NCBI GenBank assembly: GCA_030016635.1
Contig: JASEJQ010000016.1
Span: 1-43,741, forward strand
Length of the DNA: 43,741 nucleotides
DNA from: Thermoanaerobacteraceae bacterium
GTDB taxonomy: Bacteria; Bacillota; Thermoanaerobacteria; Thermoanaerobacterales; UBA4877
Reading direction: 5' to 3'
The notes below the pieces were generated by a model, which saw only the letters and a program-made list of their open reading frames with translations, ran no database searches and was not told where the DNA came from. A program made the position numbers and the translations under genes. Below are positions 13,790 to 29,977 of the stretch, piece after piece. Each line of letters opens with the position of its first letter. Positions within the stretch are counted from its first letter, which is position 1.

Positions 13790-14254
13790 ATGTTTGAAAA
13801 TAAAAAGGTAATCATTATTGGGGATAGAGACGGCGTACCAGGACCGGCTATTGAAAGCTGCATAAAGACAACAAAAGGGGAACCGGTGTTTTCTGCTACT
13901 GAATGCTTTGTTTGAACAGCTGCGGGAGCGATGGATCTGGAGATCCAGCAGAGAGTAAAAGACATGGCAGAAAAGTATGGGCCGGAAAATGTGATTGTAA
14001 TGCTGGGGAGTGCCGAGGCTGAGGCTGCTGGCCTGGCTGCCGAGACGGTGAGCAACGGCGATCCGACGTATGCAGGTCCTCTGGCAGGGGTATCATTGGG
14101 TCTTGCCGTATATCATATACTGGAGCCGGAAGTAAAAGCGGAGATTGACCCAACAGTATATGACAATGAGGTAGGCATGATGGAAATGGTCTTGGATGTT
14201 GATGCAATTTCTAAAGAGGTTAAATCAATAAGAGAGCAGTACAGCAAATATTAA
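13790..14254 (+). CDS. grdA: Glycine reductase selenoprotein A (in-frame UGA = selenocysteine)
   Basis: Protein A carries the carboxymethyl group as a selenoether between components B and C. The frame runs from ATG 13790 (AAAGGAGG upstream) to TAA 14254 and crosses a TGA at 13913-13915, codon 42. The residues around it, CFV-Sec-TAAGAMD, are the conserved GrdA redox motif in which Sec is paired with a nearby Cys. The full product is 154 aa. Standard gene finding would see only the part after the TGA. A hairpin suitable as a SECIS follows the codon. The stop overlaps the next upstream ATG of grdB. Confidence 0.96.
13913..13951 (+). promoter_or_regulatory. SECIS-like element in grdA
   Basis: Directly after the UGA (13913-13915) there is a hairpin: CTGC (13920-13923) with GCAG (13948-13951), an 8-nt bulge on the 5' side, then TGGATC (13932-13937) with GATCCA (13942-13947) closing a TGGA loop. 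Distance and G-containing loop fit bacterial SECIS elements read by SelB. Location inside the coding region is normal for bacteria. Confidence 0.7.
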
Positions 14255-14268
14255 TGAGGGGGGATAAC

Positions 14269-15573
14269 ATGCCCTATAGGGTAGTCCATTATCTAAACCA
14301 GTTTTTTGGTCAGATTGGTGGAGAGGATAAGGCAGGCACGAGACCCTTTGTAAAAGAAGGGATAGTGGGGCCTGGCCTGGCGCTGCAGGGTGCTCTGGGA
14401 CAGGATGCACAGGTTGTTGCCACAGTTATATGTGGTGACGGATACTTCAATGAGAACATGGAAGTGGCAAAAAAGGAAATTCTCTCCATGATAAAATCAT
14501 ATTCTCCTGATATCCTCATTGCAGGACCTGCCTTTAATGCAGGAAGGTATGGTGTAGCTTGCGGCGCCATCTGCAAAGAGGTGAAGGATGAGCTTGGCAT
14601 ACCTGTGGTAACCGGTATGTATCCTGAGAACCCAGGTGTGGAGATATACAAAAAAGACATATACATTGCTAAAACATCAGATTCGGCTGCAGGCATGAGA
14701 AGTGCTGTGCCTGTTATGGCCAAACTGGCTTTAAAGCTATTAAAGGGTGAATCAATAGCCTCTCCCGATGAAGAGGGATATATCGAGAGAGGGATAAGGA
14801 AAAATGTTTTTAAAGATGAACTGGGAGCTAAAAGGGCAGTGGATATGCTGATTGCCAAACTGAATGGCAGGGAATTTAAGACAGAATATCCAATGCCGGA
14901 TTTTGACAGGGTAACACCCAATCCTCCGGTAAAGGACATGAGCAAAGCAAAGGTAGCCCTGGTTACATCTGGCGGCATAGTACCAAAAGGGAACCCCGAC
15001 AAGATAGAATCTTCCAGTGCATCCAAATATGGTAAATACAGCATAGCAGGTGTTGAAGTCCTTACCCCAGATAAATATGAGACAGCCCATGGTGGGTATG
15101 ACCCTGTTTATGCAAACAGCGACCCCAACAGGGTACTCCCTGTGGATGCTATGAGGGAACTGGAGAAAGAGGGAGTTATAGGCAAACTTCATGACTACTA
15201 TTATGCCACAGTTGGCAATGGGACATCGGTGGCCAATGCAAAGAAGTATGCTCAAACCATAGCAAAAGAGCTGGTGGCTGATGGCGTCCAGGCGGTTATA
15301 CTTACATCTACCTGAGGTACCTGTACTCGTTGCGGTGCAACGATGGTAAAAGAAATTGAGAGGGCAGGTATACCTGTCGTCCATGTATGTACCATAGTGC
15401 CTATATCTCTTACGGTTGGGGCCAACAGGATAGTACCTGCTGTAGCCATACCACATCCTCTGGGAAATCCAGCCCTATCTAAGGAGGAAGAGAAGTCCCT
15501 TAGAAAGAGCCTGGCCCTTAAAGCACTAAAGGCGCTGGAGACACCTGTGGATGGTCAGACCGTTTTTGAATAG
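14269..15573 (+). CDS. grdB: Glycine reductase component B, selenoprotein subunit GrdB (in-frame UGA)
   Basis: Larger subunit of the substrate-specific component B. It removes the amino group and passes the two-carbon unit to the selenium of protein A. The gene runs from ATG 14269 (AGGGGGG five bases upstream; the ATG at 14254 lacks a site) to TAG 15573, 434 aa, and is read through TGA 15313-15315 at codon 349. The motif TST-Sec-GTCTRCG matches the known Sec-containing site of GrdB. VVHYLNQFFGQIGGEDKAG at the N-terminus marks the glycine-type subunit. Downstream lies an unusual 320-base gap before grdC. Confidence 0.96.
15313..15347 (+). promoter_or_regulatory. SECIS-like element in grdB
   Basis: After UGA 15313-15315, a perfect 7-bp stem TCGTTGC (15327-15333) with GCAACGA (15337-15343) closes a GGT loop. 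An outer ACC/GGT pairing (15319-15321 with 15345-15347) extends it across a bulge. The loop lies 18 bases after the UGA, as expected for a bacterial SECIS. Confidence 0.75.
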
Positions 15574-28562: not shown

Positions 28563-28633
28563 AAAAGAGGATTTATTTGATTTGCAGAGAATATATAATA
28601 TTGTAGAATTAAATTTAGAGGGCTGGGATATCT

Positions 28634-29977
28634 ATGGCGATAGATATGAATCTTATATTAAACCAGACACAAAAACTTATAATGACCCCCGAGTTGAAAC
28701 AGGCTCTAAATATCCTGCAGCTTAACATTGCGGAGTTGAGCCAGTATATAGAGGAGCAACTTGAAATAAATCCGGTGCTGGAAGCCTCTGAATATGACGA
28801 AATGGATATAATTGAATGGAATGACTATATAAGTCGGGATGAACAAGAGGATAATAATTATGACGATGAGGATGATGACATATCCTTTGAGAGTTTTGTG
28901 CCTTCCAGACCATCTTTAAGGGACCACCTGATGTTCTAGCTGCACCTGACACCCGTTACCATGAGGACCAGGAAGGTATGTGAGTACATCATTGATAGCC
29001 TGGATGAAAACGGTTACCTCACTGTTAGCTTAAACGATATCGCCCTTAACGTTAATGAGAATATGTATATTGCCGAGAGGGCATTGAGGATAATACAGGA
29101 ATTTGACCCGCCGGGAGTTGGTGCCAGAGACCTTAAGGAATGCCTTCTTTTACAGCTAAAGGCCAGAGATATTTTAAATGATGACATAAGGAATTTAGTT
29201 GAACATCATCTTAAGGATATAGCCGAAAACAAGCTGACACTTATAGCTCGCAAAATGAATATTGATGTATTGAAAGTACAGCATATGATTGACATTTTGA
29301 AAACCCTCAATCCAAGGCCTGGCTGTAATTTTTCCGGGTATAACGACATGCGGTATATTGTACCAGATGCAATAGTAAGAAAGATTAAGGGGAACTTTGA
29401 GATTATTATAAATGATGGTGATATACCGAGACTGCGGATTAATAAGTTTTACACGCAAATATTGCAAAATAACGGTAGAAATTCAGAAGAATTTAAATAT
29501 TTAAATGATAAGCTTCAGTCAGCCTTTTGGCTTATTAAAAACATTGAACAGAGAAAGAATACCCTCTACAATGTGATAAAGGCCATAGTAGAATACCAGT
29601 GCGACTTTTTTGACTCCGGTATAAATGGGTTAAAACCATTAACATTAAAACAGATAGCAAAGACCTGTGGCATCCATGAATCCACTGTGAGCAGAGCTAC
29701 CAACGGGAAATATGTGGATACTCCTAAAGGAGTGTATGAACTTAAATTTTTCTTCAAAAACGGGGTTACAAATGATGGTGGGGAGGTTTCTTCAGAATCA
29801 ATCAAAAATCTTATTTCAGGTATTATTGCCAAAGAAAATCCCCGTGCACCATTAAGCGATCTAATAATAACCAAAATGTTAAAAAATGAAGGAATAGATA
29901 TATCACGAAGGACAGTGGCTAAATACAGGGATGAACTTGGAATTCCGTCTTCAAATAGAAGGAAAAGGTTTGATTAA
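28634..29977 (+). pseudogene. rpoN: RNA polymerase sigma-54 factor, interrupted by one in-frame amber codon
   Basis: Encodes sigma-54, which directs transcription from -24/-12 promoters with enhancer-binding activators. The frame spans 447 aa, the normal length, but codon 102 (28937-28939) is TAG. Before it lies region I (MNLILNQTQKLIMTPELKQALNILQ, shortened here in mind to its Gln-rich start) and an acidic linker. After it the same frame continues with the core-binding domain and the C-terminal RpoN box RRTVAKYRDELGIPSS. A single C-to-T change from CAG would explain it. It could be a real mutation, suppression or a sequencing error. Position before cggR is as in related Clostridia. Confidence 0.85.

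Follow-up and report, generated by a model that had tools for sequence, protein, structure and literature searches.

The only rpoN gene of this genome is interrupted at codon 102 by an in-frame TAG, and we interpret this, with a probability of roughly 0.7, as a genuine and very recent nonsense (null) mutation. The gene lies in the 43,741-nucleotide stretch of DNA analysed here (the window), which is contig C22 of a draft assembly of 2,351,550 bases in 114 contigs. It is flanked by what we take, by recognition, to be a deoC-like gene and a cggR-like gene, the latter followed by lower-glycolysis genes. The relevant features are listed below; G001 is the nearest relative, a member of the same family with identity at 363 of 447 aligned residues.

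28617 to 28622, + strand: AGAGGG, likely ribosome-binding site of rpoN, found by eye; the G001 rpoN has the same
28634 to 28939, + strand: first part of rpoN, 101 codons plus TAG, encoding region I (residues 7-50, the activator-interacting domain) and the acidic linker
28937 to 28939, + strand: in-frame TAG, codon 102
28940 to 29977, + strand: second part of rpoN, 345 codons plus TAA, encoding the DNA-binding domain in full and the core-binding domain for the most part
28961 to 28963, + strand: nearest in-frame ATG beyond the stop, lacking a ribosome-binding sequence 5′ to it; the Met is common to G001
29495 to 29968, + strand: Sigma54_DBD (PF04552), including the RpoN box (about 29903-29932)

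The first-pass annotation had described a sigma-54 gene intact except for the amber codon, reading as normal RpoN in the same frame on both sides, with an acidic linker ahead of the stop and a conserved C-terminal RpoN box, and each of these points held. Counted from ATG 28634, the rpoN frame (28634-29977) comprises 101 open codons, the TAG at 28937-28939, and a further 345 open codons up to the TAA at 29975-29977, with no other interruption. A match to Sigma54_AID (PF00309, 62 bits) precedes the TAG, and matches to Sigma54_CBD (190 bits) and Sigma54_DBD (201.5 bits) follow it. When the TAG is read across, the protein matches TIGR02395 over its full length (1-434 of 434) with 454.1 bits (cut-off 277.35), and the second part alone still exceeds the cut-off, with 385.6 bits. 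Region I and the core-binding and DNA-binding domains are thus all present, the TAG cutting the first off from the other two. The acidic stretch (about residues 69-82) sits 5′ of the stop. The RpoN box reads SRRTVAKYRD, with R316, R317, T318, V319, K321, Y322 and R323 invariant in an alignment of six sequences.

A genome-wide search, one of the checks proposed at first pass, yielded no second full rpoN in the 2.35 Mb draft. One candidate, a PF04552 match of 24.1 bits on contig C25, was rejected as a second copy; it belongs to a LevR-type activator (L099:9606-12569, minus strand), in whose N-terminal domain residues 29-80 match the profile (E 3.2e-6) and contain an RpoN-box-like sequence. G001 and several g3 genomes likewise have long frames, of about 980-1050 codons, with a weak match of this sort (positions about 380-434). 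Judging by sequence, it is possible that the LevR-type activator and the sigma factor have a DNA-binding fold in common.

To see what codon 102 encodes elsewhere, we searched 61 genomes (this one and 60 relatives) for rpoN, with a match in 36, and compared the loci of 29 relatives, in 27 of which the codon was readable. It encodes Gln in 26 of these (18 CAA, 8 CAG) and Glu in the remaining one. Gln is very likely to have been the ancestral residue, since almost all relatives carry it and G001 has CAA. A stop occurs here in none of the 27, and there is therefore no conserved recoding. The first-pass annotation had proposed a recent change of CAG to TAG; the recency is upheld by the data below, while a CAG ancestor is not, as G001 has CAA and both codons are found among the relatives. 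In the sampled long open reading frames of this genome, Gln is encoded by 1607 CAG vs. 460 CAA codons.

The possibility that TAG is decoded was examined from several sides. Release factor 1 is present and intact (564 bits), and TAG terminates 49 of 201 sampled long open reading frames. PylS, the one pyl gene product searched for, gave no match above cut-off in the genome. The tRNA model gave 42 matches, 41 of which were read by ARAGORN; the last, a tRNA-Tyr at a contig end, has the anticodon GTA by eye. No CTA anticodon occurs among these 42, a set that is incomplete, some expected isoacceptors being missing from the assembly. The checks for pyl genes and for an amber suppressor tRNA that had been suggested at first pass thus turned up neither of the two marks of a recoded TAG gene, PylS or a CTA-anticodon tRNA. 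All seven tRNAs whose anticodon differs from CTA by one base occur in their normal form, and the genome has a tRNA-Gln with anticodon CTG.

We also scanned 416,741 bases (the window and 20 stretches picked partly for their activators) for stops within coding-like sequence that are flanked on either side by 60 or more open codons. Of 38 such stops, 23 had a start codon with a ribosome site within 15 codons. Among the remaining 15, only the rpoN TAG and a TGA at 15313 in a grdB-like gene interrupt a single gene; the others lie in antisense frames or at gene borders, as judged by reading the translations. No other TAG-interrupted gene was found in the bases scanned, and TAG recurs neither at the same place in relatives nor within these other genes. 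Because the grdB TGA is the only other lone interrupting stop, the rpoN TAG belongs to no recoding habit, and stop-making errors are rare here. Genome-wide recoding of TAG was rejected on the lack of a PylS match above cut-off, the use of TAG as a normal terminator, the intact release factor 1 and the lack of other TAG-interrupted genes in the bases scanned. The grdB-like glycine reductase gene (window 14254-15570), in which the TGA at 15313-15315 is followed by GTCTRCG, served as a positive control in the scan; from the identity of the gene, we take this TGA to be a selenocysteine codon. A second release-factor match (C41:22646-23686, L127) lies below the prfA cut-off and has one TGA inside; it is presumably prfB with its known programmed frameshift.

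The regulon that would depend on sigma-54 appears to be still in place. A search for activators and -24/-12 promoters, likewise proposed at first pass, brought both to light: the genome encodes 19 sigma-54 activators, 15 of the PAS, GAF, PrpR or similar type and four of the LevR type, and has eight perfect -24/-12 sites, vs. one in a reversed control. A twentieth PF00158 match was discarded as a Clp-type ATPase. Three of the LevR-type activators were only partly read in the Pfam scan; their frames are open over 906-920 codons. Six of the eight sites precede a gene of the same orientation, four of them by 25-37 nt and the other two by 158 and 261 nt; an activator domain is found no more than 2 kb from five of the eight. 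Eighteen of the 19 activators look maintained. The exception, encoded on contig C106 (4.5 kb; L041:1024-2406), is broken by two frame shifts, which an alignment to relatives places about 250-300 nt from each other; it adjoins a perfect -24/-12 site and is without a close counterpart in G001 (best match 45%). It is either a pseudogene or the product of a poor small contig.

We then asked how old the loss might be. On the 3′ side of the stop dS is saturated, and on the 5′ side dN/dS is 0.15; because dN/dS said little on relaxed selection, we used polarised amino-acid changes. After the stop, 16 changes fall on this branch vs. 11 on the G001 branch (34 unresolved; p = 0.44 for 16 vs. 11), and before the stop, 5 vs. 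8 (8 unresolved). The RpoN protein has not changed faster on this branch. The gene presents the picture of a recent pseudogene, an inactivating change in an otherwise conserved sequence, and the loss, if real, would be very recent because the regulon is still in place. A separate observation concerns codons 1-90 (window 28634-28903), where the codon is identical to that of G001 at 45 of 66 conserved residues, vs. 132 of 285 elsewhere (p = 0.0016); this excess is perhaps a 5′-end effect.

Interrupted rpoN genes are also found in other members of the order. Of 24 genomes searched, three have no rpoN and 21 do; the gene is uninterrupted in 16 and interrupted in five, each differently. In G012, a one-contig genome, it is broken by an insertion of 1393 bp that carries a transposase-like frame, and the remainder shares 99.7-100% identity with an intact relative. 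G013 has a single-base shift at a run of seven C and G023 one within a short T run, while in G006 the gene is split across two contig ends that continue into sequence unlike rpoN. In G012 and G023, a flagged TAG accompanies the split rpoN match. The neighbouring gene cggR is unbroken in 23 of 23 genomes of the order, the 24th, G011, having no cggR; a flagged TAA in the cggR of eight genomes is the last codon, i.e. the natural stop, in the seven that could be checked. With G006 taken as unbroken, rpoN is broken in 4/21 genomes vs. 0/23 for cggR (p = 0.044), a comparison that uses a single neighbour gene as control and small counts.

The phylum sample outside the order contains 128 genomes with rpoN, from which two contig-end splits (G114, G154) were set aside; two genomes with fragments only (G069, G092) were not counted. 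In this sample, 2 of 126 rpoN genes are broken, by a 20-bp tandem repeat in G040 and by a 1393-base insertion with a transposase-like frame in G200. The proportion is higher within the order (3/20 vs. 2/126, p = 0.019, leaving out the genome studied here and taking G006 as unbroken), an excess that disappears if both single-base shifts are taken as sequencing errors (1/20 vs. 2/127, p = 0.36). These data are suggestive of recurrent loss of rpoN in this order. A search of the class (37 genomes) and of the phylum sample (199) yielded one other full-length rpoN with a lone in-frame stop, a spare copy in G077. This genome has three rpoN copies (loci C16:11676-13004, L211, and contig C26), and the extra one has a TGA in the linker region.

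The best explanation of these data is that a single nonsense mutation has struck the genome's only rpoN. Translation from ATG 28634, where both frame and stop are observed, would be terminated by release factor 1 after 101 residues. The product would consist of region I and the acidic linker, with neither core-binding nor DNA-binding domain, and no sigma activity would be expected of it. The strain would then be functionally devoid of sigma-54, and its 19 activators could no longer switch on the genes behind -24/-12 promoters. As there is no visible decay yet in the remainder of rpoN, in almost all of the activators or in the promoters, such a loss would be a late event that took place either recently in the history of the strain or while it was being cultivated. 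The differently caused interruptions in other genomes of the order further suggest, on small numbers, that losing sigma-54 is repeatedly tolerated or favoured there.

The main rival to a genuine mutation is a base-call or assembly error, in which case rpoN would be intact in the living strain and its sigma-54 regulon ordinary. One wrong base in a draft of many contigs would suffice, and the maintained state of the rest of rpoN, of the activators and of the promoters is what an intact gene would also predict. However, stop-making errors are rare here (grdB TGA aside, the scanned bases have no other lone interrupting stop), and one would have to have struck the sole rpoN. The TAG is, moreover, a substitution and no homopolymer slip, and relatives have independently caused rpoN breaks, one of them the insertion in a one-contig genome. 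We consider an error of this kind rather unlikely. Read-through of the TAG, giving some full-length sigma-54, could be brought about by an unseen suppressor tRNA, the gene for which might hide in an assembly gap since expected isoacceptors are missing, or by the near-cognate tRNA-Gln with anticodon CTG, and would be in keeping with an otherwise undamaged rpoN. It is made improbable by the failure to find a CTA anticodon, by the normal form of all seven one-base neighbours, by the frequent use of TAG as a terminator in the presence of release factor 1, and by the absence of further TAG-interrupted genes from the sample.

The first-pass annotation had also raised a restart at ATG 28961, with no clear ribosome site, giving a protein without region I. 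The ATG is indeed in frame, 21 nt past the stop, and no Shine-Dalgarno-like sequence was seen 5′ of it by eye; the loss would not be confined to region I, however, as positions 1-27 of the 185-position core-binding profile would go too. The 338-residue product would keep positions 28-185 of this profile and the whole DNA-binding profile, and might support activator-independent or altered transcription. If the strain is thermophilic, which is a guess on our part, activator bypass at elevated temperature could matter for such a restart. In E. coli, sigma-54 deleted for region I is reported to permit some bypass at glnAp2, about four-fold more at 42°C, but to be largely inactive in vivo (PMC4551910). 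The restart product is not simply this known deletion, because the first 27 of 185 core-binding positions are also gone. In PMC10666635, reinitiation is reported to drop to almost nothing at gaps of about 20 nt, and older work on reinitiation with longer gaps is cited there as well. The Met at 28961 is, furthermore, inherited rather than a new start. Restart at this codon is unlikely, and an active sigma-54 arising from it very improbable. Least probable of all is a split sigma-54, in which the 101-residue and ATG 28961 products of one mRNA would cooperate, with region I acting in trans. Recent loss of sigma-54, the reading favoured at first pass, is the best supported: the rpoN is the sole copy, no decoding route was found and the regulon is still in place.

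If a nonsense mutation has indeed occurred, the one factor required by all 19 sigma-54 activators of this genome is gone, and the regulon has been caught just ahead of decay. Phenotypes of the sequenced strain, such as substrate range and fermentation products, may then misrepresent the species. The differently broken rpoN genes within one order also raise a testable question, whether repeated loss occurs in isolation and culture or in nature. More generally, our data caution against inferring sigma-54 regulation purely from activators and promoters.

A search of the open-licence literature brought to our notice no paper on a naturally occurring nonsense allele of rpoN in a relative among the clostridia; loss of rpoN is named as a route to new expression patterns in PMC4551910. 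Among the genomes compared here, G006, G012, G013, G023, G040 and G200 likewise have a well-kept rpoN with one interruption, whose causes differ from the lone TAG described here. The extra copy in G077 has a lone linker-region stop as here, but it is a TGA, and two other copies are retained. Campylobacter jejuni is reported to have lost rpoN during laboratory evolution (PMC7677240), and a Clostridium beijerinckii DSM 6423 mutant to carry a point mutation in sigL, encoding sigma-54 (PMC6510779). The former resembles our case in that rpoN function was lost quickly with the regulon otherwise in place; there, however, a deletion was observed arising in culture, whereas here a point nonsense codon is found in an unrelated anaerobe (PMC7677240). 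The latter resembles it as one base change in a clostridial sigma-54 with viable cells, but the C. beijerinckii mutation is a missense change obtained after mutagenesis and allyl alcohol selection, with a phenotype proven by complementation, while ours is a nonsense change read from the gene sequence (PMC6510779).
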